From a virus: DNA of 40,344 nucleotides. Location: positions 1 through 40,344 of IMG/VR virus record IMGVR_UViG_3300003885_000050; one strand, 5' to 3'. How positions within the stretch are numbered: the stretch's first letter is position 1; each line of letters begins with the position of its first letter. The notes below the pieces were generated by a model. The model did no database searches. It was not told the DNA's origin and was given only the letters and a program-made list of their open reading frames with translations. Below, piece by piece: positions 2,946 through 38,091 of the stretch. A program made the translations under genes and the position numbers.

Positions 2946-3108
2946 TATCAGGAGAACAATAAAACAAATATTCTGTAAACATCGTTTCAGGGATATAACC
3001 ACCAAACCTAACAGAAGAGCTGGTTTCCAGTACTGGAAATGTAGAAAGTGCGAACACGTTGTCACGTGTTGGGATAAAAAGGGAACATTAACTTATACCA
3101 GCTTATGA
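2938..3108 (+). CDS. Zinc-ribbon microprotein, 56 aa (cassette 2)
   Basis: I chose ATG 2938 over earlier in-frame starts because it is part of the repeated ATGACTGATAT junction. The protein has CKH (13-15), then YWKCRKCEH and a final C, so C13/H15 and C34-x2-C37 with H39 and C44 can make a zinc ribbon. The N-terminus is strongly basic (RRTIKQIF), fitting nucleic-acid binding. The start overlaps the previous stop by 8 nt, and the stop overlaps the next start as ATGA. Confidence 0.65.
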   Translation: MTDIRRTIKQIFCKHRFRDITTKPNRRAGFQYWKCRKCEHVVTCWDKKGTLTYTSL

Positions 3109-3251
3109 CTGATATCAAGAAAGAAGAAATAAACTGGGCTACTGCACTTGTTGATATTGTAATTATTATAGTAGCGTCGCAAACATCATGGTTGTTACTT
3201 ATTCTAGTTTTTCTTACAGGTAGTTATAAGCTAAATAAGTCCCATGACTGA
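3105..3251 (+). CDS. Small membrane protein, 48 aa (cassette 3)
   Basis: After the shared start MTDIKKEEINW the protein is almost entirely hydrophobic: ALVDIVIIIVASQTSWLLLILVFLTGSY covers one long or two short membrane segments, with a Lys-containing tail (KLNKSHD). It begins in the previous stop (ATGA) and ends in GAC TGA inside the next ATGACTGATAT. No ribosome site is seen. The function is unknown; a membrane-acting early protein such as an exclusion or host-modifying peptide is possible. Confidence 0.6.
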   Translation: MTDIKKEEINWATALVDIVIIIVASQTSWLLLILVFLTGSYKLNKSHD

Positions 3252-3504
3252 TATTAAGACAGAGGTGAGGGAGAGAATAGCTACACAGCTAAGTTTTATT
3301 GAAGATGTAGAGAACATTAAACTTATTACAAAGGCAATATATTCGATTGTAGATGTTACTATCGACAAAGCAGTATTAGCTGAAAGAGAACGGACAATGA
3401 ATATAATCCGTGATGCTATATGGAAATTCTGTGAAGAAAATACAGATGGTTGGGACACCGATGATTTAATAATATCTATACATAAAGCTATCAACCATGA
3501 CTGA
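3244..3504 (+). CDS. Small hypothetical protein of the MTDI paralogous family, 86 aa (cassette 4)
   Basis: The gene begins with the repeated start (MTDIKTEV), then RERIATQLSFIEDVENIKLI, LAERERTMNIIRDAI and a C-terminal DLIISIHKAINHD. The LAERER helix and the final (S)I.KAIN segment are shared with cassettes 1 and 6, so these are paralogues with variable middle parts. It overlaps both neighbours by 8 nt. There is no ribosome site, so translation probably depends on coupling. Confidence 0.7.
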   Translation: MTDIKTEVRERIATQLSFIEDVENIKLITKAIYSIVDVTIDKAVLAERERTMNIIRDAIWKFCEENTDGWDTDDLIISIHKAINHD

Positions 3505-3673
3505 TATTAAGAAAGATGAAAAATGTGATTGTGCCCATGAAGTAGCTTGGGTGGTCACTATAGGTGATGGATGCATGCACGTTACTCCGCACCCTAGTAA
3601 AAAAGACTGGAATGGAGATATAAAGCCATCCTTAAAAGAACTAATTGCCAAACTTGATAAAGTATATGACTGA
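3497..3673 (+). CDS. Small hypothetical protein, 58 aa (cassette 5)
   Basis: MTDIKKDEK is followed by CDCAHEVAWVVTIGDGCMHVTPHP, in which three Cys and three His could bind a metal, and a C-terminal helix LKELIAKLDKVYD. The start lies in the stop of cassette 4 and its own stop lies in the start of cassette 6, both as ATGACTGATAT. No known family is recognised. Confidence 0.6.
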   Translation: MTDIKKDEKCDCAHEVAWVVTIGDGCMHVTPHPSKKDWNGDIKPSLKELIAKLDKVYD

Positions 3674-3890
3674 TATAAAGAAAGAAAACTTTCACTCAAC
3701 CTGTCAGACTTGCAATAAGCTAATCCCTAACCAGCATTTTGACTGCGAGAGAGAGTTGAAGAAATTAGCAGCTTTAGCTGAACGGGAAAGATGCATAATA
3801 ATTATGGAAAGTATGAAAGAACAAAGTGGAGGCGAACACTGCACTTGTATTGATTACTCTATTAAAGCTATCAACCAACAAGATGACTAA
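3666..3890 (+). CDS. MTDI paralogue with a Cys-rich insert, 74 aa (cassette 6)
   Basis: The gene begins with MTDIKKENF. The protein has CQTC (15-18) and further Cys/His residues in the first half (a possible zinc site), LAALAERERCIIIMESM in the middle, and a C-terminal IDYSIKAINQQDD matching cassette 4. Its end (GAT GAC TAA) overlaps the next start ATGACTAA by 8 nt, a variant of the same junction. The start at 3666 is preferred to the in-frame ATG at 3645 because of the repeat. Confidence 0.65.
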   Translation: MTDIKKENFHSTCQTCNKLIPNQHFDCERELKKLAALAERERCIIIMESMKEQSGGEHCTCIDYSIKAINQQDD

Positions 3891-4572: not shown

Positions 4573-4781
4573 CCCCTCCTCACGGTCACTCATATCATTG
4601 ACTCCGCTATGAGTGACGATGAGGGTGGGATAGCAATCGTTTAATGAAAAGACCCAACCTTTATAAGTTGGGAATGGGTGAATGAAAGGTAGCCCTTGCT
4701 ATCCGCCCTAACCCGCCAGTGATTCGTGTCCACCTACTGCGGACAGGAATTGACCAGCTCTTCGGTGAGCGTGGCGGGGCT
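4573..4781 (+). promoter_or_regulatory. Structured untranslated leader upstream of the 4782 gene
   Basis: This 209-nt stretch without a convincing gene is full of inverted repeats. A long imperfect hairpin has the arms 4573-4594 and 4608-4629, including a perfect GTCACTCATA/TATGAGTGAC. A perfect 9-bp pair GGATAGCAA (4628-4636) / TTGCTATCC (4696-4704) closes over CCCAAC (4653-4658) / GTTGGG (4667-4672). Two small hairpins follow: TGTCC/GGACA (4727-4745) and GCTC/GAGC (4757-4770). The first two stems share bases 4628-4629 at their edge. No U-tract terminator is present. A regulatory leader or a processed RNA is likely. Confidence 0.5.
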
Positions 4782-5012
4782 ATGAGAAAACCAGAAATAT
4801 ACTTTACTTTCATAAACCAGTATCAGCAGATATTCGGCGAGTACAACTGGTATGACATCACCATAATAGAGTTGTCTTTTGAGTATGACATGGAGATGAC
4901 CGGAGGATATGAGTTCACTTTCATACTGCTGGGGATAGGCTTTCTTTTCAGGCACACTGTTGACCTTGAAAATTCAGTAGTAGGCAAGAGATTGAAAGAT
5001 ATTAGGGGATGA
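4782..5012 (+). CDS. Small hypothetical phage protein, 76 aa
   Basis: I chose ATG 4782 because GGCGGGG lies just upstream; a GTG start at 4719 would run through the structured leader. MRKPEIYFTFINQYQQIFGEYNWYD is followed by beta-rich YEFTFILLGIGFLFRHTVD. This pattern of a short aromatic protein ending in a 'LLGiGf' strand is common in small phage proteins of unknown function. The stop overlaps the next start as ATGA. Confidence 0.55.
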   Translation: MRKPEIYFTFINQYQQIFGEYNWYDITIIELSFEYDMEMTGGYEFTFILLGIGFLFRHTVDLENSVVGKRLKDIRG

Positions 5013-5185
5013 CCACTAAACAGGAAATACTATTCTGGCAGAAAGCCAAGAAGCTGGCTAGAGATGGTTATGTCAAAGGATACTGCAGTGAGATAAACCT
5101 GGACTGCAAGAGTTGCCAGGCCAGGCTAACGATAAGCTGGATAGATAATCATATAGCCCTTTTGAAGTGGTCGTTGAAGGAATAA
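5009..5185 (+). CDS. Small hypothetical protein with Cys pairs, 58 aa
   Basis: MTTKQEILFWQKAKKLARDGY is followed by CSEINLDCKSC (C26, C33, C36) and a C-terminal amphipathic helix (IDNHIALLKWSLKE). It is coupled by ATGA to the gene before. The N-terminus is similar in style to the gene at 2754 (IWQKEAKIAER), but no family can be named. Its stop lies 5 nt before the promoter of the structured RNA. Confidence 0.5.
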   Translation: MTTKQEILFWQKAKKLARDGYVKGYCSEINLDCKSCQARLTISWIDNHIALLKWSLKE

Positions 5186-5187
5186 GT

Positions 5188-5196
5188 TGCTATAAT
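5188..5196 (+). promoter_or_regulatory. Extended -10 promoter of the structured RNA
   Basis: TGCTATAAT is a perfect extended -10 element (TGnTATAAT). No good -35 is found 16-18 nt upstream, as usual for extended -10 promoters. The expected start is near 5203, only 7 nt before the closing stem of the RNA begins at 5210. Confidence 0.7.
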
Positions 5197-5202
5197 ACAA
5201 CC

Positions 5203-5533
5203 GTTCCTTGTAAGAAGTTAAGAAGAGTGAATGACGGAACAACAGTTTTAACGCTGTAACGTCAAGCGGTGCGTCCCTATGCACGGGAAGCCGCTCGGTT
5301 GACCTAATACATGAATAATCTAGTTAATAGGTCATTGCGGGTAATAAGTGGAAGTTATAACCATTTAAGATAATCCCGCTCACTCTTCTTAGTTCCTTAC
5401 ATAACCCCTAACCCCTAACTCCTTAAAATTCGTAGAAATTTCCCCAGGAAATCTCAAAATACGAATTCCCGGTGAGAGAGAAGCAGAAAACCATACCCTA
5501 GCCCCTTAAAGCTACTTCTTTCTCACCTTTTTT
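5203..5533 (+). ncRNA. Putative stand-alone structured noncoding RNA, about 330 nt
   Basis: The stretch has no credible reading frame but a dense set of nested stems. P1: 5210-5230 pairs with 5380-5400, 21 bp with 18 Watson-Crick pairs, two G-U and one mismatch. Inside it, in order: TGACG/CGTCA (5232-5236/5260-5264) with ACAG/CTGT; AGCGG/CCGCT (5265-5269/5291-5295) with TCCC/GGGA; TGACCTA/TAGGTCA (5300-5306/5328-5334); GCGGG/CCCGC (5337-5341/5375-5379) with TAAGTGG/CCATTTA. The first helix starts one base after P1 and the last ends one base before P1 resumes. Downstream are AATTCGTA/TACGAATT (5427-5434/5460-5467) around ATTTCC/GGAAAT, and a terminator. No known class is recognised. Confidence 0.72.
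5471..5533 (+). terminator. Rho-independent terminator of the structured RNA
   Basis: GGTGAGAGAGAAGCAG (5471-5486) pairs with CTACTTCTTTCTCACC (5512-5527), 16 positions with one G-U and one mismatch, followed by six T (5528-5533). The long loop (5487-5511) has no clear fold. It separates the RNA from the gene at 5552. Confidence 0.85.
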
Positions 5534-5536
5534 ATA

Positions 5537-5545
5537 TGATATAAT
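5537..5545 (+). promoter_or_regulatory. Extended -10 promoter placing the start of transcription at the 5552 start codon
   Basis: TGATATAAT is a perfect extended -10 element directly after the terminator. Seven bases separate its end from ATG 5552, so the transcript would begin at or beside the start codon (leaderless). No ribosome site lies between. Confidence 0.6.
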
Positions 5546-5551
5546 TAACGC

Positions 5552-5866
5552 ATGGAAAGAACTGAACATTTTGAAAGCTGTTCCGCCGCACTTTGTAAAG
5601 ACATGACGGACAAAGAGAAAGGAGAGGCTATCTGGTATCCTGGTGAAGAGATTTGTTCCGGCAAGCCACCGAATGACTTTATAAAAGAACAGCAAAGGAT
5701 GAACCGAAGACTTAAAAAAGGCACTGCCAGCTACGGCAATAAAAGTTATACGGCAAAAATGCTGGAAACTACAAAGAGAGATAGAAAACCTATTGGTAAA
5801 CCATTCACTAAGGGCCACACCATTGGGTCGTCTCACAGATTTAAGGCCACTACGGGGCCGACTTAA
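5552..5866 (+). CDS. Hypothetical protein with Cys motif, 104 aa
   Basis: The protein has three Cys in the first 35 residues (FESCSAALCKD, then WYPGEEICSGK) and a long basic C-terminal half (MNRRLKKG, TTKRDRKPIGKPFTKGH). The 'W.PGE.IC' turn with upstream Cys is a pattern of small phage proteins that probably bind zinc; no activity is known to me. The gene has its own promoter and appears leaderless. The basic tail suggests nucleic-acid binding, perhaps of the neighbouring RNA, which is only a guess from position. Confidence 0.65.
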   Translation: MERTEHFESCSAALCKDMTDKEKGEAIWYPGEEICSGKPPNDFIKEQQRMNRRLKKGTASYGNKSYTAKMLETTKRDRKPIGKPFTKGHTIGSSHRFKATTGPT

Positions 5867-6233: not shown

Positions 6234-6401
6234 TTATTTAGTTTTAGAGATTGCGTGTCTCGTGGTTGCGAACCCAGCTCCAATCAGGATAGTGATCAGT
6301 GATACAAAGGTATCATTACCTATCATGTTAAGGCTGTAGAATAACCCCAGCAGTCCTATAACAACAGCTACTGCGTAAGTTTTGGACCCATCTATTTTCA
6401 T
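6234..6401 (-). CDS. Holin-like small membrane protein, 55 aa
   Basis: Two hydrophobic segments (YAVAVVIGLLGLFYSL, residues about 9-24; FVSLITILIGAGFA, about 32-45) are joined by a short polar turn, with a basic C-terminus (TRHAISKTK). Size and topology fit a class II holin. Position fits too: last gene of the lysis cassette after the endolysin and another membrane protein, overlapping the latter by 4 nt. An A/T-rich hairpin (CTAAAAAC/GTTTTAG) covers its 3' end at the convergence with the plus-strand genes. Confidence 0.6.
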   Translation of the reverse strand: MKIDGSKTYAVAVVIGLLGLFYSLNMIGNDTFVSLITILIGAGFATTRHAISKTK

Positions 6402-6634
6402 TGCTTTTGGTTTAATAAATAAGATTCTATATTACCAATTTTTATATCTATCCGATTAAGGGTGCTGGTTAGATTTATATCCACCTCATTACCCCTGGCT
6501 ATTGCCAACTCTAATGCCCTAAGACGCAGGTTGATATTAGTCATCCATGTCAAAATGCCCATTATTAAAATCGGAATAAGTATTTTCAGGAATACATGCT
6601 GAAACCACCAGTCTATTGAATATTGGTCAGACAT
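6398..6634 (-). CDS. Small membrane protein with coiled coil, lysis cassette, 78 aa
   Basis: An N-terminal hydrophobic segment (VFLKILIPILIMGILTWM, residues about 14-31) is followed by a charged helix (LRLRALELAIARGNEVDINLTSTLNRIDIKI) that can form a coiled coil. The gene overlaps the endolysin end by 22 nt and the next holin-like gene by 4 nt. One membrane span and a periplasm-long helix suggest a holin partner or i-spanin-like role; neither can be decided from sequence. Confidence 0.6.
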   Translation of the reverse strand: MSDQYSIDWWFQHVFLKILIPILIMGILTWMTNINLRLRALELAIARGNEVDINLTSTLNRIDIKIGNIESYLLNQKQ

Positions 6635-15385: not shown

Positions 15386-16846
15386 CTAATCGTGTTCATA
15401 CCTTATCTTTTCTATCAGCGTCACTATGTCAGATACTTCAGGGGTGTCATTGGAATTGGGGTTCAGTTCAAGCCCCACCTCAAACGACTTCCCCTTATTA
15501 CCGCAAGTAAATTCAGCTTTAGTTGAACTATGACCAGATGATACAGCATGGGTAGTAGAACCATCTCCCAGCACTGCGTACCTCCAATTATCCTCATCAT
15601 CCAGCTTAAATTTAGCCGATACGGATGTTTGCGATGGCAGAGGTTTCATCATTACCGTAATCATCCTGTGCCAGCGATTCAGGTGGGGTTCTCCGGCATC
15701 AAACTCCAGCCCTTCGTATAAGGCGGCAGCCTTAGTCGTAGTACTTATCTGGTCTATACCATATTCAGTCGTAGACCCGTCTACCGTCTCCCATGACGCA
15801 AGTAAGGTCCCATTGTGCATCTCTACACTGCCAATCTCCGTAACGGTAGACCCACTTACCGTAGGGCTTAATCTATAATCATAATTTAAGGCAAAAGGAT
15901 GGTTGCTTCTCTTCCTGCCAAGGCTCCATAGCCCATCAGTCCCATCAGTGGTTCCGTATATGCCGAATAACGCCACGTCATCTTTAATAGTCACGCCATC
16001 AGGTCTTACTTGCCCGCCGCCTGGAACTCCATTCAGAGGCGTAGTAGTCACGAAGTCAGAGGTGAAGAACTCGCCATCAGTCCCACCCTGAATTATAGGG
16101 AACTCGGTAGTAACCATGGAATTTATGCCCTTAACGGGGATCAGCTTCTTCTGCACCCAGTCAAGAGTGGTAATCACCCACGACCAGATGTGCCCCTGCT
16201 CCGCAAGACTGCCTCTACCGCTACCCATGATAGCGTAGTCATCTCTTTCGTCTAAAGCCTTAATAACATTACCTTCTCTAATGTTAGCCGCCACGGGGTC
16301 CCAGTTATCCAGCCTGTCCAGTGCCGCTAGAGAGTCCTTGTTAGCTATCATAAGGGAACCTGAGGCCGTCTTCATGGTGTGATGGTCTACTGATGCCAAA
16401 TCAGTCTTAAAGTCCTGCGTGGCCACTCCAGCGGCCCAAGGAGTGTCAGGAGAACCATCTATAGCCGCTCTAGCCAGTGAAGTTTCAGTAGCCCATATCA
16501 AGTAACGGCTGCCATCTTTTATAGTCCACTCATCGGCTCCTTTAATCTCTCCATTCTCATCGCTATATAGAAAAGTCCACTCTCCATCGCCACTTCTCGC
16601 CCAGATACTGCCGCTGGCATCAAAGGCGTACATACTGCCATCTGACCCGGACACCATGTGCCTAATCATCCCGCTTAAAGCGGCGGGGGTAACGTCATTC
16701 ATGGCCTGGTGGCAAGAATAGGTGTCATTACGCTTCCGTATGTTTCCAGCATAGCCAGCCTTAAACGACCCCGTAGGGCCTTTATCATTTTCCGAGCTGA
16801 TACCTCCCCGGAAAGTCTTAATAGTGTATGAGTCAAAATCAGGCAT
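15386..16846 (-). CDS. Tail nozzle-like beta-propeller protein, 486 aa
   Basis: I chose the ATG at 16846 (MPDFDSYTIKTFRGGISS), 1 nt after the upstream stop, over a start 17 codons earlier that overlaps the upstream gene. Successive short beta segments (GSDGSMYAFDASGSIWARSGDG, DGSRYLIWATETSLARAAID, DDYAIMGSGRGSLAEQGHIWSW, DGTDGLWSLGRKRSN, WHRMITVMMKPLP) resemble blades of a propeller, as in tail nozzle proteins of podoviruses (gp12 of T7, gp10 of P22). The family is inferred from fold style and place. Confidence 0.55.
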   Translation of the reverse strand: MPDFDSYTIKTFRGGISSENDKGPTGSFKAGYAGNIRKRNDTYSCHQAMNDVTPAALSGMIRHMVSGSDGSMYAFDASGSIWARSGDGEWTFLYSDENGEIKGADEWTIKDGSRYLIWATETSLARAAIDGSPDTPWAAGVATQDFKTDLASVDHHTMKTASGSLMIANKDSLAALDRLDNWDPVAANIREGNVIKALDERDDYAIMGSGRGSLAEQGHIWSWVITTLDWVQKKLIPVKGINSMVTTEFPIIQGGTDGEFFTSDFVTTTPLNGVPGGGQVRPDGVTIKDDVALFGIYGTTDGTDGLWSLGRKRSNHPFALNYDYRLSPTVSGSTVTEIGSVEMHNGTLLASWETVDGSTTEYGIDQISTTTKAAALYEGLEFDAGEPHLNRWHRMITVMMKPLPSQTSVSAKFKLDDEDNWRYAVLGDGSTTHAVSSGHSSTKAEFTCGNKGKSFEVGLELNPNSNDTPEVSDIVTLIEKIRYEHD

Positions 16847-16847
16847 A

Positions 16848-17405
16848 TCAATAAGAATACTTATCGTAATCAACCTTCCAGTATTTTCCCCTGGCATAAT
16901 ACTTGTCGGCCTTGCTTAACTTAACTTTCTTTCTATTTATTTCAGAGAAAAAATACTGCGCTCTAAATCTATAAGCGTCATCTTCATTAAGGAAAAATAT
17001 CAAAACTCTCTTTATCATCCTTAATCTGCCTTTCATGTCATCCACTATCTCCATCTCTATCATTTTATCGAATACTCTGGCCATCTCCCTAACGGCAGGA
17101 ACGCACTTCTCATCAGGCAACATGTCGTATTTCATGTCATTAGCCATATCCTCTAACTCTCCAAAGACTTTATTGAAGATTGCGTTTTTCACTTTCTTTT
17201 TCATTTTAGCCAAAGGACCAAGTAAAACTGGTCCTCTTGGAAACCCTGGGTATTTATATTTCTCTCCTTTAATCTCCATCTCCAGATGGCCCTCTTTTGC
17301 GTGGCCTACCTTGGCTCTGGCAGGCGCTCCATTCTTCCAGTATTGGACTGATTCAGGAGGACGTATTTTATACCATTGGTCAAAAAATAGTCTTTTTATG
17401 TTCAT
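16848..17405 (-). CDS. Hypothetical structural-region protein, 185 aa
   Basis: The start at 17405 has AAAGGAG 5 nt upstream (minus strand) and is preferred to one 16 codons earlier. The protein is basic and aromatic: MNIKRLFFDQWYKIRPPESVQYWKNGAPARAKVG, several Lys-rich helices (AKMKKKVKNAIFNKVFGELED) and an unusual C-terminus rich in Tyr and Lys. It follows the coat gene, from which it is separated by a strong hairpin whose loop can pair with its ribosome site. It may be a connector or head completion protein; no family is recognised. Confidence 0.65.
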   Translation of the reverse strand: MNIKRLFFDQWYKIRPPESVQYWKNGAPARAKVGHAKEGHLEMEIKGEKYKYPGFPRGPVLLGPLAKMKKKVKNAIFNKVFGELEDMANDMKYDMLPDEKCVPAVREMARVFDKMIEMEIVDDMKGRLRMIKRVLIFFLNEDDAYRFRAQYFFSEINRKKVKLSKADKYYARGKYWKVDYDKYSY

Positions 17406-17465: not shown

Positions 17466-18776
17466 TTAAACCTTGCCGAACAATACGGCACCAGAACGTC
17501 TCCTCATGGCGGGTACCTTTACGCCATACAGGTGAAGCCCCTGATATTTCCTGGCAAACTGATTCTCCGCATCAACTACACGACTCTCTGCCCATTTGTA
17601 GGCGAAGGTCATATAAGAGATGTGATTAGCAAGAATTACATGGGTTTGTGAACCATCGGTCTGCACGGTGTCAACTGTCTCAGTGGATTTCTCCAGTCGA
17701 GTAGATACACGTGTGCCAGCCGCCGAGTGAACTTCAAATCCAGCCATTCTACCAACATTACCGTTCAGGATTACGCCTTCATACGCTTGCGCGATAGCAG
17801 GCTGTAGTTCTGAAACCCGTCTCAAAATCATTACGATCTTAGGAGACACGGTGATGTGTCTGTCAGTGTCAGGAATCTCGTTTTTATCGAGCTTATGCGC
17901 CACTTCCGTGAATTGGTCATAGAGGGTTGTCTTGGTTATGGACGTTGCCCGTCCAGCCTGGAACTCCCATCCCCATCCAACCGTAGCACTTCGTGACTCA
18001 GTAGTTACCTTTCCATCAGTGTTCAGGGCACCTCCCAGGAACTCTGGAGCGCCTCCCAATCCACGGAGAATGTCTCCGTTAGGAATGTCTGAACCAGATG
18101 TAGCATCATCCCAGTTCGTGATGGTGGCAGTGTTTGTGTCAGTAACAGCAGTAATCTTATACCACTCGGTAGCGTGGGTTGTACCAGAAGTCAGTCGGAC
18201 AGGCTTGCCGATGTCCTGCGGGTCTTCAAACCCAGCAGCAACCAGCGTGCCATCTCCAATTTCAACTGGTCCAATCGTAGCAGCAGCTTTGTCTGCCATG
18301 ATTTCCAAGGTTCCACCGGCAGCAGTAGTCGTGACAGAAGCGGCGGTTTGCGTACCACCAGCTATCCTTAAGTCAATCCCTACCCAGTTACCAGCCTTGG
18401 CTTCTCCAGCCTTTTCCAGCGTATAAGTATCAATACCTCTTTCAATAGTTTTGTTTGCGTTTTCAACCAGCGTGTCACTAATATCACCAGAATAGGTGAA
18501 GAGTTCCTCGGTGCGGTCAATAGGGAAGCTGTAATACTTCCGCTTCTCAACCACGAGTTCATCTTCAGAGTCAACGATTGACTCTACGCCCATATCTGTA
18601 CCTGCTATATAATCAGTCAGCGTGATGTCAGACAAGAAGGAAAGAATCCTTACTCGGTCACCAGCACTTTTGATTTCACCCTCGTAATCACGATTAGCGA
18701 TTGATGGGGTTACGGCAGTTTGATAGAACCGTCTTAGGGTCTTAGTGGCAAACTGTATTCCAAATTTACTTAACAT
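17466..18776 (-). CDS. Major capsid protein (HK97 fold, P22 gp5-like), 436 aa
   Basis: The protein follows the scaffold gene and has an AGAAGGTG ribosome site. The N-terminus (KFGIQFATKTLRRFYQTAVTPSIANRDYEGEIKSAGDRVRILSF) matches the start of P22-type coat proteins, followed by a KRKYYSFPIDRTEEL segment and a long helix region. An inserted beta-rich domain runs from about residue 140 to 255 (Gly/Thr-rich), and the C-terminal P-domain-like part has YEGVILNGNVGRMAGFEVHSAAG and FARKYQGLHLYGVKVPAMRRR. Length (436 aa) is close to P22 coat. It forms the icosahedral shell. Confidence 0.85.
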   Translation of the reverse strand: MLSKFGIQFATKTLRRFYQTAVTPSIANRDYEGEIKSAGDRVRILSFLSDITLTDYIAGTDMGVESIVDSEDELVVEKRKYYSFPIDRTEELFTYSGDISDTLVENANKTIERGIDTYTLEKAGEAKAGNWVGIDLRIAGGTQTAASVTTTAAGGTLEIMADKAAATIGPVEIGDGTLVAAGFEDPQDIGKPVRLTSGTTHATEWYKITAVTDTNTATITNWDDATSGSDIPNGDILRGLGGAPEFLGGALNTDGKVTTESRSATVGWGWEFQAGRATSITKTTLYDQFTEVAHKLDKNEIPDTDRHITVSPKIVMILRRVSELQPAIAQAYEGVILNGNVGRMAGFEVHSAAGTRVSTRLEKSTETVDTVQTDGSQTHVILANHISYMTFAYKWAESRVVDAENQFARKYQGLHLYGVKVPAMRRRSGAVLFGKV

Positions 18777-21024: not shown

Positions 21025-21387
21025 TCAAAAAGCATTTTGATTAACATTGCCATTCACGTCTATATCTCCGTTTGATTTGAACCTGGCTACTTCTATGCCT
21101 CCAACAAATATATTCATCGTAGTCCCATCGTAAGTAATATATGTCCGGCCGGTAGATATAGATACAGTCGGCGCCAATAAAGCAGAAGTTAAAGCCAACG
21201 TGCTGGGCGTAACAGTCGGGTTCTGGTCTGCGACTATAGTTGGGGCCAGGAGTGACAATGTTAATGCTAGAGTAGCTGGAGAATACGAGTCATTAGTGGA
21301 GAATGATGGCGCTAATAAGGCCGAAGTTAAGGCTTGAGCGGCTGGCGTGATAGTTGGGTTCTGGTCTGCGACTATCGTTGGGGCCAA
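21025..21387 (-). CDS. C-terminal part of the repeat-bearing tail fibre, in the shifted frame, 120 aa
   Basis: This frame continues the 23-aa repeats of the upstream frame (APTIVADQNPTITPAAQ, SYSPATLALTLSLLAP) and ends in GRTYITYDGTTMNIFVGGIEVARFKSNGDIDVNGNV, a typical fibre tip module. The listed ATG is only the first Met in this frame and lies inside a repeat. The repeats continue upstream without interruption to the C-tract at 21415-21420, where the frame must change by one base to join the 402-aa frame. It is therefore probably not an independent gene. Confidence 0.65.
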   Translation of the reverse strand: MAPTIVADQNPTITPAAQALTSALLAPSFSTNDSYSPATLALTLSLLAPTIVADQNPTVTPSTLALTSALLAPTVSISTGRTYITYDGTTMNIFVGGIEVARFKSNGDIDVNGNVNQNAF

Positions 21388-21740
21388 GAGAGCTGAAACT
21401 AAAGTTAAAGTGGCGGGGGGTTAAGGCCAAGGCTAGAGCGGCAGGTGAATATGAGTCATCAGTAGAAAATGATGGTGACTGCAGAGTCAAGGCCAGGGGT
21501 AGAGTAGCCGGTGAATATGAGTCATCAATGCTTATTGTTGGAGCTTGTAATGTCAGGGCCAGGGCTAGAGTAGCTGGAGAATACGAGTCATTAGTGGAGA
21601 ATGATGGTGACTGCAGGGTTGAGGTTAAGGCTAACGTGGCTGGCGTGATAGTGGGGTTCTGGTCTGCGACTATCGTTGGGGCCAAGAGAGCTGAAACTAA
21701 AGTTAAAGTGGCGGGGGTGACGGTTACAGCCCCCACCGGC
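21150..21740 (-). repeat. Tandem fibre repeats and a 64-nt perfect direct repeat
   Basis: About eight protein repeats of 22-24 residues ('TPATLALTSALLAPTIVADQNPT' and 'SPATLALALTLQSPSFSTDDSY' versions alternate), 66-72 nt each. A 64-nt stretch is identical at 21356-21419 and 21654-21717. The spacing of 298 nt is not a multiple of three, and the end of the first copy is exactly the frame break (GGGGGG at 21415-21420). Confidence 0.8.
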
Positions 21741-22501
21741 ACAAACAGCTTCCGATTAGGTCTATATAGCAGTAATCCTTTCTGATGTACTAAAGAACGA
21801 AAATATAAATCTTGACTTTCAACAGGTGATAATAATCTTTTGTAAACTCGTACATCATCTATAAAACCTTTAGTAAAATTGGGAGTATTTTCTTTTCCAA
21901 TTAAAAAATTATCAGCTATAACCGGTGTTAAAGTGGGCAGAGTTCCGAAATTGGTTATCGTTGTTTCAACGCCATTTATATATCCCTTGACTCTATCAGC
22001 CGCAACAGATTCATCTCCATCAAAAGTAAAAATTATATGTTGCCAAACAGTATTATTTAACGTAAAATATCCAGCGTTAAAACTTCCATCTCCAATCCAA
22101 AAATAAACATTCCCATCAGCATCCTGCGTCAAAAATAACATGTCAGCGTTAGCGGGGTCATAAGTGCCGAAACTCACATAATCACCAGAGGCATTTCTTT
22201 TCATCCACGCGGAGAACGTAACCCTCGGGATAAACTCCAGTTCTGGTATATTTCCAGCGTCTACAAAATCATTAGTGCCATCAAAATCCAGTGCCCCCCA
22301 ACCTTTATGCCTATTTACTTTACCTACCCAATCATCTTGGGCCATGTTGGTTAATGCCCCATGATAATTATTCCCTGATAGGTCATACCAAGTGAAAGAA
22401 CCCCTATTGTGAGGGGTTACCAGCCACCAACCGACCAGTCCATCGTTAAGAGGGTGTTTCGAAAGAGGGTTACTCCAGTCTATTTTGGTATAATCGTCCA
22501 T
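21293..22501 (-). CDS. Tail fibre: LamG/concanavalin-like domain plus tandem repeats, frame-interrupted
   Basis: Residues 15-220 form a LamG-like jelly roll (LVGWWLVTPHNRGSFTWYDL, WGALDFDGTNDFVDAG, VTFSAWMKRNASGDYVSF, WQHIIFTFDGDE, GFIDDVRVYKRLLSPVE), the glycan-binding module found in many phage fibres. From about residue 258 there are tandem repeats of about 22-24 residues of the type SYSPATLALALTLQSPSFSTD. After ALALTP (near 21417) the frame leaves the repeat pattern and becomes unrelated sequence. The true continuation lies one base away in the frame ending at 21025. With correction the fibre would be about 490 aa. Confidence 0.65.
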   Translation of the reverse strand: MDDYTKIDWSNPLSKHPLNDGLVGWWLVTPHNRGSFTWYDLSGNNYHGALTNMAQDDWVGKVNRHKGWGALDFDGTNDFVDAGNIPELEFIPRVTFSAWMKRNASGDYVSFGTYDPANADMLFLTQDADGNVYFWIGDGSFNAGYFTLNNTVWQHIIFTFDGDESVAADRVKGYINGVETTITNFGTLPTLTPVIADNFLIGKENTPNFTKGFIDDVRVYKRLLSPVESQDLYFRSLVHQKGLLLYRPNRKLFVPVGAVTVTPATLTLVSALLAPTIVADQNPTITPATLALTSTLQSPSFSTNDSYSPATLALALTLQAPTISIDDSYSPATLPLALTLQSPSFSTDDSYSPAALALALTPRHFNFSFSSLGPNDSRRPEPNYHASRSSLNFGLISAIILH

Positions 22502-22504
22502 CCA

Positions 22505-23068
22505 TTATGTCGTAGCCTGTACTTCGGTAATTATTGGACTTAGCCTGATACTTATTTCCACGGCATCAGCTATAAAATTTTGGTCACTACTATTTTTAAC
22601 TACTATGATTCCCCACCTCTGTTTAGGCAGGAAAAGACCCAAGTGACCTATATGCGTATCAATATCATTTGATACCGGCATAGAGCCTACAAAGTCCAAA
22701 TCATTTATAGCTTCATTGGCATCAGCGGCCGCCGCTCCATAACCATTATAGGCCGCATCCGCACCGCTCAAGTTTCCAGGGTTGCCGGTAGCGGCCGTAG
22801 TTGAATTACTAAATCCTATCCACACTTCTATATTTTTACCCGCTGTTGGGGCTACTGAAAATTCAAAAGCTCCGGTAACTGCCCATACATCAGCTCTGGT
22901 AACTCCTAAATCAAACTTGGCACTCTGTCTATATAATCCAGCCGCTAAAGAAGTTAAGTCAATCTGGTCAGTTCTAGTTCCTAGATTATTAGCGGCAGCC
23001 GGAGAGTGGTCGGTGGTATCCGCCAGTATTATGTCGGTTCCCTGTTTAAGTAATACGGTATTAGGCAC
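22505..23068 (-). CDS. Structural-region protein, probable tail or decoration subunit, 187 aa
   Basis: The protein is Ala/Thr/Asp-rich and mostly beta (DIILADTTDHSPAAANNLG, GAFEFSVAPTAGKNIEVWIGFS, QRWGIIVVKNSSDQNFI, VEISIRLSPIITEVQ), with a Gly/Ala loop region (GYGAAAADANEA). This composition is common in virion decoration and tail proteins. It overlaps no neighbour and stops 3 nt before the LamG fibre start, so it is in the same unit. No named family is recognised. Confidence 0.55.
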   Translation of the reverse strand: MPNTVLLKQGTDIILADTTDHSPAAANNLGTRTDQIDLTSLAAGLYRQSAKFDLGVTRADVWAVTGAFEFSVAPTAGKNIEVWIGFSNSTTAATGNPGNLSGADAAYNGYGAAAADANEAINDLDFVGSMPVSNDIDTHIGHLGLFLPKQRWGIIVVKNSSDQNFIADAVEISIRLSPIITEVQATT

Positions 23069-24234: not shown

Positions 24235-25043
24235 TATACATCGTGATAACGGACAGAAATGGTAGAGCTGGCTGCCCCACTAGATATGACTGCGTATATT
24301 TTCCCAGTGTAATCACCAAACCCATATACCTGATTAGCCACCACGGGGAACCCATTGGCAGTCGTGACCGTATCATCAAACCCAAAATACACAGGGTCAT
24401 CACTCTCTTGAGTGACCGTAATAGCTTTACGCTCTAATATCTCCGGTACCACCTGTGTAGCAGTAGTAGCCACGTTCACTGCTCCATGCGCCCCAGTGGT
24501 ACTGCGCTCGTAGTCTTGTGGCCTAGAACCGCCTCCACCACTCATAATCTGCTTTACAGGTTTGCCACTGGCATCTACCTGAATGACAGGTACAGGCTTA
24601 GAGAAACTTACATCTTCAAATATATCTCTAGCTGGCTCAAACATCCCTTGGGCTTCAACAGCTTTCTTGATGGCCCTCATCTCATTAGTTAAAGCCTTGG
24701 TAGCAATATTGACTTTAGCGGCAGGTATCTTTGGCATTTTAACCATTACTTTAGCCTCCGGTACCTTAATGGGTGGAATAACAATGGGGTCAGGCTTATC
24801 TACATTCACTACCACTTTGGGGCGGGGCATCTCCGGCATCTTAACCTCTGGTACATTAACTTCGTTCACTATCTTTATGTTTTTTATCTCCGCAACTATA
24901 GTGCCTAGTATCTTGCCTAACTGGGTCTCCAATAGGCCAGCCAAGGTTTTGCTTATTCTATGATTGAATCTATCAGCCAGTCTTATATCACGTTTCTCTT
25001 GTTGAATAGCATCATCTATTTCCTTTTTAAGTTTATCTGACAT
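24234..25043 (-). CDS. Virion protein with Pro-rich beta shaft, 269 aa
   Basis: A charged N-terminal coiled coil (residues 1-55) is followed by a periodic Val/Pro/Lys stretch (VNVPEVKMPEMPRPKVVVNV, KPDPIVIPPIKVPEAKVMVK), probably an extended trimeric shaft. Then come a helix (TNEMRAIKKAVEAQGMF), a Gly-rich hinge (SGGGGSRP) and a C-terminal beta domain (ERKAITVTQESDDPVYFGFDD, GKIYAVISSGAASSTISVRYHDV). The gene overlaps the portal end by 11 nt. A neck fibre or head appendage is the best guess. Confidence 0.5.
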   Translation of the reverse strand: MSDKLKKEIDDAIQQEKRDIRLADRFNHRISKTLAGLLETQLGKILGTIVAEIKNIKIVNEVNVPEVKMPEMPRPKVVVNVDKPDPIVIPPIKVPEAKVMVKMPKIPAAKVNIATKALTNEMRAIKKAVEAQGMFEPARDIFEDVSFSKPVPVIQVDASGKPVKQIMSGGGGSRPQDYERSTTGAHGAVNVATTATQVVPEILERKAITVTQESDDPVYFGFDDTVTTANGFPVVANQVYGFGDYTGKIYAVISSGAASSTISVRYHDV

Positions 25044-26778
25044 TTTGTAAGGAGCTTAACTCATTAAGACTCTGATTAACTGTTTGAGCCTGTGGTTCCT
25101 CTCCCTCTCCCTGCTGGGCCGCTACTTGTCTATTCTGATCGGCTACCTTATCAGCTCTCTCCTGGTCAGCTTTTATCATCCGCAACTCCTCGGGAGTCAA
25201 GTCAAGCATTTCCAGCGACCTGCTTTGGGCAATCTGATTAAGAGCTGGGTTGTTGGGGAACTGGGACCGCACAAACATTAGCTTCTGTATTTCTTGCGCC
25301 TCTTCCTCTTCTCGCAAAGAGTTGCTTTTCACCTCTGGTATATACCCCTCTTCACTCTTCCAGTCCTTAGGAGACACTTCACGAGGCCACAGGGCGCCAT
25401 CTTTAGACCTCTTATATAGATTTCTCATTCCAGTCTCGTTAGCTGTAACTAACGCATAGTATTTAACTGCCAGTTCATACCATGACCTATCATAAAACTT
25501 AGCCATGGACACAGTTCTCTCCATAGACTTGCCAACCAGGGTTTCAACCTCTCCCAGAGTTATTTGTTTCTTCTCACTGACACCCTTATCTATGCTAGTA
25601 GCCGCTGTTCCTCTCTCCACTAGCCTGATGATAAAGTCGATAGAAGTCATGGTTTCATCCAGCCCGTTAATCTGAACAGGCATGATGGTGTCCTTAGGGT
25701 TGCCCGGAGCTGGCAACATTCTTCCCGCACCTGGTTGATATGTTTGAGGTTCGTAGTTCTCGCTAGTAGCATCGAACCAGTGCATCTGAAAGTTAGTCAA
25801 GGTTCTATTCTCCACTAACTGGCTGAACCATACATTGATTACGGAGTTAGGCACTCGCACCAAATCAGCAGGTCCATCGCTCCAAAAGTCGTTAGTCTCC
25901 ACGTCATCCCCCCAAGTCACGTATGGGTAGAAGTCCACGCCCAGCAAATCCATTAGAGGTTCATCCATCAATTCAACCGAGTCATTAACATAAACAGAAA
26001 CTCTCTTCTCCCACTTATCCTTAGCCTCATTCCACTCCTTAGAGATATGTTCCGTTAGGTTAACTATTACTTCTCCAGCGGATATGTCGGTTAAGAAGTC
26101 AAAACCAGCCTCCCCGTCATTTATCTCTCTCAACCTGCGGGTCTTACGCTCATACTCATCCCTAGCCCTATCCTGCATGATAACTCCATCTTCGGAGTTC
26201 ATGTATATCTTCAACTTATTGCGCCCGCTTACGGTGTATCTATCATCATCCAATACCTCGCTCAACGGCTTAAATATGTTTTCGTGAATAATGAATCGAG
26301 CTGTTTCAATATCTACAGGGTCTACCTGTGGGTCTACTAACACATCATAAATATCCAGAGCTTTTATTTCCAGTCCATCCTCTCCCCAATCTAGTTTCTT
26401 AAAAGCTCTACCATAGAGCATGACAGTTTTCTTGTCCTGAATATCTACAGCCTCCATGTTAAGGCGGTCATAGTCTGCGTTCCACATCTCCTGGAATATC
26501 ATCTCCTTACTCTCATCTCCTCCCATGTCTTTCCAATTTACTGTGGGCGGGGCGTCAATCTTACTCAAAAGGGTTTTAACCGTCTCTTTCATCAGGGGGA
26601 TATTCACGTCCTGACGTTGGGTGAGTCGGTTTATCTTTACTTCATTCCTATAAAGCTGGTAATTATCGTCCCAATCACCATGTCTACGCCTACGGTAAAA
26701 TCGGGCAGAGTCTTTCTGGCTGACTCTCTGAACTACTTTCTTATCTACCGTGGGCGTTGGTATTGTTAACTCTGGCAT
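25033..26778 (-). CDS. Portal protein, 581 aa
   Basis: Place directly downstream of the terminase, size, and sequence support a podovirus portal: DDNYQLYRNEVKINRLTQRQDVNIPLMKETVKTLLSKI (clip/stem start), GRAFKKLDWGEDGLEIKALDIYDVLVDPQVDP (wing), a long middle with DLVRVPNSVINVWFSQLVENRTLTNFQ (stem/crown helices), and a Gln/Glu-rich C-terminus. Twelve copies should form the DNA channel and dock TerL. Its ATG follows a T-run (TTTTTTT) instead of a Shine-Dalgarno site, with a weak hairpin in the 48-nt gap upstream. Confidence 0.8.
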   Translation of the reverse strand: MPELTIPTPTVDKKVVQRVSQKDSARFYRRRRHGDWDDNYQLYRNEVKINRLTQRQDVNIPLMKETVKTLLSKIDAPPTVNWKDMGGDESKEMIFQEMWNADYDRLNMEAVDIQDKKTVMLYGRAFKKLDWGEDGLEIKALDIYDVLVDPQVDPVDIETARFIIHENIFKPLSEVLDDDRYTVSGRNKLKIYMNSEDGVIMQDRARDEYERKTRRLREINDGEAGFDFLTDISAGEVIVNLTEHISKEWNEAKDKWEKRVSVYVNDSVELMDEPLMDLLGVDFYPYVTWGDDVETNDFWSDGPADLVRVPNSVINVWFSQLVENRTLTNFQMHWFDATSENYEPQTYQPGAGRMLPAPGNPKDTIMPVQINGLDETMTSIDFIIRLVERGTAATSIDKGVSEKKQITLGEVETLVGKSMERTVSMAKFYDRSWYELAVKYYALVTANETGMRNLYKRSKDGALWPREVSPKDWKSEEGYIPEVKSNSLREEEEAQEIQKLMFVRSQFPNNPALNQIAQSRSLEMLDLTPEELRMIKADQERADKVADQNRQVAAQQGEGEEPQAQTVNQSLNELSSLQNVR

Positions 26779-32039: not shown

Positions 32040-34661
32040 ATGGAAACATTAGAAACAGCAAAGAGTAAACTGTTTGGTGTCAAGAAACGAGGAGATAATT
32101 ACATGGCTAACTGCCCTTGTCACGCCGATGGGACGCAATCATTGTCATTGAAAGAAGTAGATGGGAAGTTATTAGCCTACTGTCACGCCGGATGTAAGTT
32201 TGAGGATATTATAGAGGCGTTAAAAACAAATAATATCCCTCAACCACCACCTGCGAGACACCATAAGAAGTCATCAGGTAGTTCAAGCAATGGTTCAAAA
32301 TCTAAAGTAACAGACACCTATTATTATCACGATGAGGATGGACAAGTGGTTTATAAAGTGCTTCGCCAGGATAGTAAAGACTTTCCACAGCTAAAACCAG
32401 ATGGATCACCAATTGGAGATACCAGGAAGGTGTTATACAACCTGCCTAAAGTATTGAAGTCTGATTTCGTCTTTATTACAGAAGGAGAGAAAGATGCTAA
32501 TACGCTAATAGAGTTAGGATTCGTAGCGACTACTGTGTCGGGGGGAGCTACCGCTAAAAATTGGAAGCCACACTTTAATGATTGGATGAAAGAAAAAGGG
32601 GTGATATTGATTCCAGATAATGATGAACCTGGTAAAAAGTTTATGTTCCACATAGAAAATGAGCTATCAGATGTGGCAAAAGTAAAGATTATCACCCTAC
32701 CAGGGCTTGAAAATAAGGAAGACATAACAGATTGGATTAGTCAAGGGCATACTTCAGAAGAATTGCTAGAAATCATCAAAAATACCCCAAAATCACATAC
32801 TACACAACATATTGATGAAAATGTCACTACTTTACAGACTTTACAGCATACTTTCCCTGAAGGCGGTAGGATTAAATTTGGAACAATATTACCATTTTAT
32901 AATGACAATCTGCCTGATTTTCCACTAGATTCTCTACCTGATGTCCTGAAAGAGTACGTGGAACAATATTCAGTATCATCACAAACTCCTATAGATATGA
33001 GTGCGCTACCAATACTGTCAGTGATTGCCACTTCAGTGCAGGGTAAGTTCTTATTAGAGATAAATAGTGACTACAAGGAAGAGCTGGCAGCGTGGACTAT
33101 CATCTCTCTCAAGTCCGGCAAGAGAAAAACATCAACACATGAAGCTGTAACTGCCCCAATTAGACAATATCAATTATCTAAGGAATTAGAGATGTTTGAT
33201 GATGTCAGTAAATCACAAGCTACTTATGATTCCCTAAAATCAGAATATGAGTCAGCTAAGCATAAAAGAGGCACTAAATCTGTCCCTTACTCTAGTGACG
33301 AAAGAAGAGATGATATGATTAAGATAAAGATAAAAATGGGCAAGCACGTCCATATAAACAATCCTAGATATATAGTCTCTGATATTACCCAAGAGAAGCT
33401 GGCAGCCCTATTAAAGAAGCATGATGAATCATTAGGAGTGTTCTCTGATGAAGGTGAGGCGTTAGCAATTATGGCTGGGAGGTACACCAATAAGGCGAAT
33501 ATAGAGCTATATCTAAAATCATGGTCAGGATCACCACACGACCATGACCGAGTTAATAAGACTATTCGCTTAGTAAGGCCATTAGTTTCATTCTGCCTAT
33601 TCACTCAACCGTCAGTCCTTAGTGAAATGGGTTCAGAACAGCAGTTTATTGGAAAGGGATTATTAGCAAGATTCTGGTACTCCACGCCAAAGACATATGG
33701 CATTAGAAATACTAATCCACCAACAATGGATGAAAGAGTTAAAAATAACTATAAACAGTTAATAACCAACTTGTTGGAGATTGAACCATTAAAAGATGAA
33801 TATAATAGAATAAACCCATATAAAATAAAGCTATCAGATGAAGCATTTGAGGCTTATCAGGAATATGCGAAGAAGATAGAACCTATGCTCCAACCATATA
33901 CAGAGCTTGATGGTATGTGCGACTGGGGAGATAAATTAGTAGGCTCTATGTTACGAATTTCGGCATTACTAGACCTAGCAGAGCATAATAATAATATTAT
34001 TACTACCCCCCCAGCACATTTTTTAAGCATTGAATGGCTTAACAAAGCCATAAATATAGCTAATTATCTTAAAGAGCATGCACTATATACTTTAACTACG
34101 ATGCGTCAAGACCCAGAAATAGATAGAGCAGAATATTTAAAGTGTTCACTATTAAGGCTTGGTAAGGAAAAAATTAGTGTTAATGATCTATTCCAGTCCT
34201 CTAGGGGAAAAAGTCTATTTAATGGCTTAGTAGAGAGTATGCAACCAGCTTTATTACTATTAGAGAGACATAATTATATCCACCTAGAAGCCCAAGAATC
34301 ATCTGGAGGAAGGAAGAAATCACCCATTATTCACGTAAATCCTGAATTATTTAAGAAATTTAATCCTACGCACTCCCCTGAAAGTATGCTTAAAAGTCTT
34401 AAAAGTAGTGACATAAATGACAAAACGTGTCGCAATATAGTAAAAAAGCGTAAATTACCACATTCTGACACTACTGACAACCCCTGTGGACATACTGAAT
34501 GGGGTAATGATGGTATTTGTCAAGTATGTGGCGCTACATGGAATAATCCAGATATTAAAACCACTAAACCTCATGTTGAGCAAGAAGCACCATCTATCGG
34601 AGATGATGATGCTCCAACGGAGGAGATATTAGAGGCTGAAGAACAATTATTAACAAACTGA
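32040..34661 (+). CDS. Primase-helicase type protein: CHC2-like zinc finger, Toprim, DUF3987, zinc-ribbon tail, 873 aa
   Basis: The zinc finger is formed by CPCH (25-28) and CHAGC (48-52), as in DnaG/T7-gp4-type primases. The Toprim part has the acid E148 (ITEGEKDA) and D193-x-D195 (PDNDEPG). From about 300 the sequence follows DUF3987 (FPLDSLPDVLKEYVEQYSVSSQTPIDMSALPILSVIATSVQGKF...), whose nucleotide loop is the degenerate LKSGKRKTSTHEAV. Near the end, CGHTEWGNDGICQVCGATW adds a zinc ribbon. It probably primes and unwinds DNA at the nearby origin. A GGAGG site lies 5 nt before ATG. Confidence 0.8.
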   Translation: METLETAKSKLFGVKKRGDNYMANCPCHADGTQSLSLKEVDGKLLAYCHAGCKFEDIIEALKTNNIPQPPPARHHKKSSGSSSNGSKSKVTDTYYYHDEDGQVVYKVLRQDSKDFPQLKPDGSPIGDTRKVLYNLPKVLKSDFVFITEGEKDANTLIELGFVATTVSGGATAKNWKPHFNDWMKEKGVILIPDNDEPGKKFMFHIENELSDVAKVKIITLPGLENKEDITDWISQGHTSEELLEIIKNTPKSHTTQHIDENVTTLQTLQHTFPEGGRIKFGTILPFYNDNLPDFPLDSLPDVLKEYVEQYSVSSQTPIDMSALPILSVIATSVQGKFLLEINSDYKEELAAWTIISLKSGKRKTSTHEAVTAPIRQYQLSKELEMFDDVSKSQATYDSLKSEYESAKHKRGTKSVPYSSDERRDDMIKIKIKMGKHVHINNPRYIVSDITQEKLAALLKKHDESLGVFSDEGEALAIMAGRYTNKANIELYLKSWSGSPHDHDRVNKTIRLVRPLVSFCLFTQPSVLSEMGSEQQFIGKGLLARFWYSTPKTYGIRNTNPPTMDERVKNNYKQLITNLLEIEPLKDEYNRINPYKIKLSDEAFEAYQEYAKKIEPMLQPYTELDGMCDWGDKLVGSMLRISALLDLAEHNNNIITTPPAHFLSIEWLNKAINIANYLKEHALYTLTTMRQDPEIDRAEYLKCSLLRLGKEKISVNDLFQSSRGKSLFNGLVESMQPALLLLERHNYIHLEAQESSGGRKKSPIIHVNPELFKKFNPTHSPESMLKSLKSSDINDKTCRNIVKKRKLPHSDTTDNPCGHTEWGNDGICQVCGATWNNPDIKTTKPHVEQEAPSIGDDDAPTEEILEAEEQLLTN

Positions 34662-34975
34662 TGCTTTACGCCCTTAAAAAAAGAATAGCCTTCCCTAAAA
34701 GTATGGATTTATGCCCAAGTTGCCTTGAGCCAGTCAGGGCTAAGTGCGGTTCAATAAACATCTGGCACTGGTCTCATCTGGCCGATAACAACTGCGATAG
34801 CTGGTGGGAGCCAGAGAGTGAGTGGCGGCTCAGATGGAAGAGCAGGCATAACCCAGAGGATTGTGAGGTTCCAGTTGGCAACCATATAGCTGACGTATTG
34901 GAAAACAACGTAGTCACATTGTTCCAGCACAGTAGTATCTCAAGAGATAAGATAATTGAACGTACTGATTTCTAG
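34661..34975 (+). CDS. CoiA-like protein, short or truncated, 104 aa
   Basis: CPSCLEPVRAKCGSINIWHWSHLADNNCD matches the zinc-binding start of CoiA-like proteins, and NHIADVLENNVVTLFQHSSISRDKIIERTDF matches the following nuclease strand ('hiADv....viefQhS.is...i.eRt.fY'). The protein stops right after ERTDF, where the family continues. The catalytic Glu before 'FQ' is T (VVTLFQ). It may be an inactive or minimal form. ATG overlaps the primase stop by one base. Confidence 0.55.
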   Translation: MLYALKKRIAFPKSMDLCPSCLEPVRAKCGSINIWHWSHLADNNCDSWWEPESEWRLRWKSRHNPEDCEVPVGNHIADVLENNVVTLFQHSSISRDKIIERTDF

Positions 34976-37285: not shown

Positions 37286-38091
37286 AAAAAATATTAATCA
37301 CCGGAATCTGTGGGTCGATTGGATCGGAACTGGCGAAGCAGTTGTATAAAAAGAATACACTTTATGGGTTAGACCAAAACGAAACAGGCATTAATGATTT
37401 ATATGTTGATTATAAAGTGGTGGGACGTGTAGGTGATATTCGTGACTACGATACGGTGAATGATGTATTTTCAGATTTTAAGCCTGATATCGTGTATCAT
37501 GTTGCCGCTCTAAAACACGTAGAACCGATGGAAGTAACGCCTATGGAAGCAATAAATACTAATTGCATAGGAACTTATAACATTCTTCATTGTGCTAAAA
37601 GATATGAAGTCAAGAAGCTAGTCTTTATATCAAGTGACAAGTCTGTAAATTCTTATTCAGTTATGGGAGCGACTAAAAGGCTAGGTGAAATAATGACAAT
37701 TAATCAAGGCTATACGGTGGTGAGGTTCGGAAATGTTCTAAACAGTCGTGGGTCTTTGTATCCTATATGGGAACGGGCGGCCGAAGCAAATAAAAATATA
37801 CTAGTTACGGATGAACGAATGGAACGATATTTTATTAGTTTGCCAGAGGCGGTAGAACTCGTTATACAGGCTGGCAATAAGAAAGAAAAAGGAGCGATAT
37901 ATATATTAGACATGGGTGAAAGAAAAAAGATTATAGATTTAGCGTATGATTTTATTAAAGAAACTGGAAAAGACCTGGTGGTAGAAATTATAGGGATAAG
38001 AAGGGGAGAAACCTTAATAGAAGAGTTAATGACTATCGAGGAACAGAAAAAAGCAAAGAAAGAAGATAACTTTTTTATTATCAGAAGATGA
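37282..38091 (+). CDS. CapD/PseB-type nucleotide-sugar 4,6-dehydratase or epimerase, 269 aa
   Basis: Rossmann motif GICGSIG (8-14), AALKHVEPMEVTPMEAINTN (75-94), ISSDKSVNSYSVMGATKRLGE (116-136, with M-x3-K of MGATK replacing the usual Y-x3-K) and RFGNVLNSRGSLYPIW are diagnostic of the polysaccharide-biosynthesis CapD/FlaA1/PseB branch, which removes water from UDP-GlcNAc. The product would be a 4-keto-6-deoxy amino sugar for the aminotransferase next door. Codon use appears more A/T-rich than in its neighbours. Confidence 0.85.
   Translation: MKKILITGICGSIGSELAKQLYKKNTLYGLDQNETGINDLYVDYKVVGRVGDIRDYDTVNDVFSDFKPDIVYHVAALKHVEPMEVTPMEAINTNCIGTYNILHCAKRYEVKKLVFISSDKSVNSYSVMGATKRLGEIMTINQGYTVVRFGNVLNSRGSLYPIWERAAEANKNILVTDERMERYFISLPEAVELVIQAGNKKEKGAIYILDMGERKKIIDLAYDFIKETGKDLVVEIIGIRRGETLIEELMTIEEQKKAKKEDNFFIIRR

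Follow-up and report, generated by a model that had tools for sequence, protein, structure and literature searches.

A candidate stand-alone RNA gene with a predicted five-way junction in a tailed phage genome

Described RNAs that resemble the locus

ROOL and GOLLD are ornate RNAs of phages and prophages which are backed by covariation and whose cellular function is unknown (PMC12286853). GOLLD is often longer than 800 nt, ROOL has multiple pseudoknots, and both are often found near tRNA islands (PMC12286853). The Racr RNA anti-CRISPRs are described as solitary phage-encoded non-coding RNAs which mimic CRISPR repeats (PMC10651486).

The locus considered here lies at positions 5188–5533 of a 40.3 kb virus record from IMG/VR (IMGVR_UViG_3300003885_000050), the whole of which is called the window in the following. 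Like ROOL and GOLLD, its product is predicted to be phage-encoded, highly structured and non-coding. Unlike them, it is only about 200–330 nt long and sits in a window where ARAGORN detects neither tRNA nor tmRNA; membership of either family was rejected on the basis of this size and of the lack of a covariance-model match. The resemblance to Racr is that of a predicted solitary phage non-coding RNA, and a role in counter-defence would suit an RNA that changes fast; the window RNA would differ in its predicted five-way junction.

Two further comparisons concern the architecture of the RNA. The lysine riboswitch (RF00168) is also a five-way junction closed by a P1 helix, and is of similar size, but the window RNA gives no Rfam match even at E values up to 10 and has neither an expression platform nor an alternative fold. 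In the msr-msd RNA of retrons, a closing inverted repeat encloses several hairpins, as is the case here. A retron RNA was rejected: no reverse transcriptase is adjacent to the locus or was recognised among the large ORFs scanned. The scan of the window with Rfam 15 returned 0 matches at or above the gathering score, and the four sub-threshold matches obtained at E up to 10 are all outside the RNA, in agreement with the earlier note on this DNA, whose author recognised no known class.

The window belongs to a tailed phage. The minus strand (about 8.3–31.3 kb) carries the terminase, capsid-type and SU10-type adaptor genes, while the plus strand (32.0–40.3 kb and 0–8.2 kb) carries replication and sugar-metabolism genes and many tiny genes; to judge from gene order in relatives, this plus block probably continues across the contig ends. 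ORF 17466–18776 is the probable major capsid gene and ORF 25033–26778 the probable portal gene, as judged from position and conservation in relatives, without a family match. Isolated phages are distant: the top terminase match is 44% (Flavobacterium phages), the capsid gives only partial matches and the portal none. The sugar-metabolism cluster (35.2–40.2 kb and 28.7–31.0 kb), which is kept across the phage group, includes transketolase-like, aminotransferase, epimerase, QueC/NAD-synthetase-like and rhamnosyltransferase-like members. Several repeats were also seen: a 59-nt inverted repeat (81%) at 32821–32879/34356–34414, within the primase/helicase ORF 32040–34661; imperfect direct repeats (77–90% identical) at 21170–21717, which overlap the 3' end of ORF 21293–22501; and short repeats of 20–25 nt (92–95%) at 3105–3129, 3497–3521 and 3666–3685, in the small-gene region.

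Organization and folding of the 5188–5533 unit

The locus is flanked by small ORFs (58, 104 and about 110 aa). The features are the following, with the basis of each in brackets.

5009–5185, plus strand: upstream small ORF of 58 aa with a C-rich CSEINLDCKSC motif (sequence read directly)
5188–5196, plus strand: perfect extended −10, TG-C-TATAAT, TGCTATAAT (sequence and motif count)
5209–5230, plus strand: 5' strand of P1, the closing stem (fold, pair probabilities, inverted repeat)
5232–5264, plus strand: P2, hairpin with an internal loop and a TGACG/CGTCA base (fold, pair probabilities)
5265–5295, plus strand: P3, hairpin AGCGGT...GCCGCT with CCC/GGG (fold, pair probabilities)
5300–5334, plus strand: P4, hairpin TGACCTA/TAGGTCA (fold, pair probabilities)
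5337–5379, plus strand: P5, hairpin GCGGG/CCCGC, inner TAAGTGG/CCATTTA, 9-nt loop AAGTTATAA (fold, pair probabilities)
5380–5401, plus strand: 3' strand of P1 (fold, pair probabilities, inverted repeat)
5402–5426, plus strand: C-rich linker CCCTAACCCCTAACTCCTTAA, unpaired at 5406–5426 (unpaired-stretch analysis)
5427–5467, plus strand: two-tier hairpin (fold)
5471–5533, plus strand: intrinsic-terminator-like hairpin with a 13-bp stem (5471–5483/5515–5527) and a 31-nt loop that contains an inner 4-bp hairpin (fold)
5537–5545, plus strand: separate extended −10, TGATATAAT, 6 nt 5' of the ATG of the next gene (motif search)
5552–5866, plus strand: downstream ORF of 104 aa, no family (ORF annotation and homologue search)

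The described unit is present in the sequence and its fold is well beyond chance. The extended −10, the closing stem, the four inner helices, the two-tier hairpin and the terminator that the earlier note had listed are each found at the position it gave.

The upstream ORF overlaps the stop of ORF 4782–5012 and its own stop lies 3 nt before the promoter. Transcription is predicted to start at about 5203, and the first stem begins about 6 nt past this site. No −35 element is recognisable upstream of 5188–5196, a site which is absent from the list of a generic promoter scan, and TGNTATAAT occurs 6 times in 40 kb (both strands), compared to 2.8 expected. At the other end, TTTTTT (5528–5533) directly follows the terminator-like stem; this hairpin is absent from the list of a generic terminator scan (loops of 3–8) because its loop is too long for that scan. 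The promoter and terminator of the RNA are thus putative signals, present in the sequence but listed by neither generic scan.

P1 consists of 21 pairs and one A·C mismatch (5215/5395), with arms 5209–5214/5396–5401 and 5216–5230/5380–5394; at the DNA level it is a 22-nt inverted repeat (86%). It closes P2 to P5, which occupy 5232–5379, so as to form a five-way junction. The minimum free energy (MFE) of 5203–5405 is −69.4 kcal/mol, whereas dinucleotide shuffles give −43.2 ± 4.2 kcal/mol (z = −6.3), with none of 200 reaching the native value; a second set of shuffles gives z = −5.9 (0 of 1000 as low). The z score is −7.1 for the full 331 nt (5203–5533) and −8.5 for the 3' part alone (5421–5533, plus strand). 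The folding test against dinucleotide shuffles that the earlier note had called for therefore comes out in favor of a structured RNA, with z of about −6 to −7. The minus strand folds equally well (z = −6.5; in another comparison, −6.6 and −6.8 for the two strands), and the direction of transcription therefore rests on the promoter and the T-run.

A single fold dominates the ensemble. The MFE and centroid structures are identical, both for 5203–5405 and for 5203–5533, and the pair probabilities of P1–P5 are mostly 0.7–1.0. It had been proposed that the CGTCA, TTGAC and TGACC segments pair in mutually exclusive ways, which would allow the RNA to switch fold. Forcing GTCA 5261–5264 to pair with TGAC 5300–5303, or TGAC 5232–5235 with GTCA 5331–5334, costs 6.8 to 6.9 kcal/mol; the two competing folds of similar energy that a riboswitch or switching RNA would have are absent, and this idea was abandoned. 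There is no credible reading frame within the unit, the longest frames being 19–23 codons.

A second intergenic region with a strong fold (z of about −5) is found nearby, at 4576–4781; it is associated with a 26-nt inverted repeat (4569–4594/4608–4633) and ends at the ATG of ORF 4782–5012, and is possibly a leader RNA.

Counterparts and stable folds in related phages

Searches with blastn against phage and plasmid records gave no match to the RNA beyond chance, and the protein of the neighbouring ORF 5552–5866 led to no counterpart either. Similarly, the RNA was not found in the related IMG/VR phages examined with blastn and a single-sequence covariance model; the reach of this model is limited, and many of these records are fragments. 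Scans of IMG/VR and GTDB genomes with exact patterns (a 16-mer of P3, the arms of P1 and the junction of P1 with P2) returned nothing or chance matches. The viral matches were attributed to chance from their context and from the covariance model; there were 31 matches in genomes, nine of which were checked with this model. With no homologue found, and hence no covariation to draw on, the case for an RNA gene is built from the fold and the signals of a single sequence.

A terminase scan recovered one fragment with an identical terminase, the RNA region being outside that fragment. Terminase and capsid alignment scans define a phage group with 36–70% capsid identity, the closest capsid relative being at 70%. 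Several candidates from this group were rejected: the 82% matches to P2 in G081 and G082 are inside the portal gene and were judged to be chance, as was a 16-nt match in G083, where the surrounding stretch has no similar fold; a supposed counterpart at 1305 of G002, with TGTTATAAT, folds differently; and 6270–6510 of G050, which has a similar shape at first look, folds only moderately. The record G049 carries a 117-bp stretch near both of its ends (37700–37816, L224, and 207–323, L223), with 78% identity.

The relatives do have stable intergenic folds of their own, the strongest of which have z scores of about −5 to −8:

G002, 3548–3696 (L092), nearest relative: strong fold, z = −7.5
G052, 16807–17006 (L229): strong fold, intergenic, long stems
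G086, 34469–34908 (L312): strong fold, intergenic, long stems
G082, 33633–33832 (L308): strong fold, intergenic, long stems
G092, 1442–1641: strong fold, intergenic
G092, 39.4–41.7 kb (L314/L315): strong folds, intergenic, long stems

Rfam gave no match for these elements where they were scanned, and no clear sequence relation exists among them except for the G081/G082 pair. The element of G002 has a four-branched core and a long, interrupted closing helix of 34 pairs, with TGTTATTAT upstream, and its sequence is unrelated to that of the window RNA. Shuffles of the window RNA adopt a four-branch shape closed by a long helix in 2.4% of cases, and those of the G002 element in 0.6%, so that finding the shape again in G002 gives weak support. 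Across the group, intergenic segments at least 18 kcal/mol below shuffles amount to 3.1% in 22 capsid-group records, compared to 0.8% in 21 terminase-only relatives; this enrichment is only suggestive because the segments overlap and the elements are non-homologous, and two of the records share near-identical sequence.

Possible roles of the RNA

We favor, with a probability of about 0.5, a stand-alone phage non-coding RNA gene of about 330 nt whose product would work in trans through its rigid structure and be subject to fast turnover. Transcription would proceed rightward in the early block and yield an RNA of roughly 330 nt, which may bind a host or phage protein, or a ribonucleoprotein such as the ribosome, as a decoy, inhibitor or scaffold; such RNAs would be replaced quickly within this phage group. 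A structural role in trans is preferred since the domain is mostly locked in helices and has no alternative state, and fast turnover is suggested by the fact that the intergenic folds of the relatives are stable but unrelated. The initial proposal, a structured RNA that stands alone between a promoter and a terminator of its own, is thus supported by the sequence anatomy, the folding statistics and the absence of both a credible ORF and an Rfam match, but not in the part that concerned the switch of fold. Regulatory and decoy functions, which were also suggested, are conceivable, while packaging has no support.

Next in the order of preference, although unlikely, is a small RNA that acts by base pairing. 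The junction would then be a stabilising scaffold, and the linker CCCTAACCCCTAACTCCTTAA and the C-rich terminator loop would bind mRNAs of the phage or its host at translation starts rich in G. Indeed, these are the longest unpaired stretches, the linker contains CUCCUUA, which resembles an anti-Shine-Dalgarno sequence, and the best predicted duplex of both is at a single site, the start of ORF 22505–23068 (nominal p of 0.001 and 0.003). However, as about 48 start regions were tested, the corrected p is about 0.05, which is borderline; moreover this start is simply G-rich, and the phage has few Shine-Dalgarno sequences. Less probable still is a cis element which, as a folded 3' end, a leader or an insulator, would end upstream transcription and control ORF 5552–5866. 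The position of the unit, directly 5' of this ORF and with a terminator-like hairpin at its end, would suit such a role, but the unit begins with a −10 of its own, another −10 lies immediately 5' of the ATG of the next gene, and the single fold that spans all 331 nt leaves no antiterminator state.

The equal folding of both strands and the inverted repeat formed by P1 could also indicate an element that works as DNA (a replication or recombination site, or a miniature transposable element), the RNA fold being incidental to the inverted repeats. This is improbable: there is no second copy in the genome, the sequence outside the arms reveals no target-site duplication, the enclosed space is occupied by four inner hairpins, and the promoter and T-run share one direction. 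A functionless fold, due to chance or to decay, would be consistent with the lack of detected conservation in the relatives searched. We consider it the least credible of these explanations, and very improbable, given how far the energy lies below that of the shuffles and its coincidence with promoter and terminator signals. Besides, about 330 non-coding bases without use are rarely kept in phage genomes.

The preferred structural RNA acting in trans may have equivalents elsewhere in the group. It is conceivable, if rather doubtful, that the capsid-group phages each carry at least one stand-alone, multi-branched RNA with long stems in the small-gene region, with a common architecture and role but a different sequence; these would be a class of fast-evolving RNA effectors, for example decoys against host defence or against an RNA-binding protein of the host. 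If the window RNA is expressed, it would be a new phage RNA, with a five-way junction outside every Rfam family, in a lineage that has no isolates. The enrichment of unrelated stable folds in these relatives is a hint that phages of this kind may often carry RNA effectors that homology-based searches miss.
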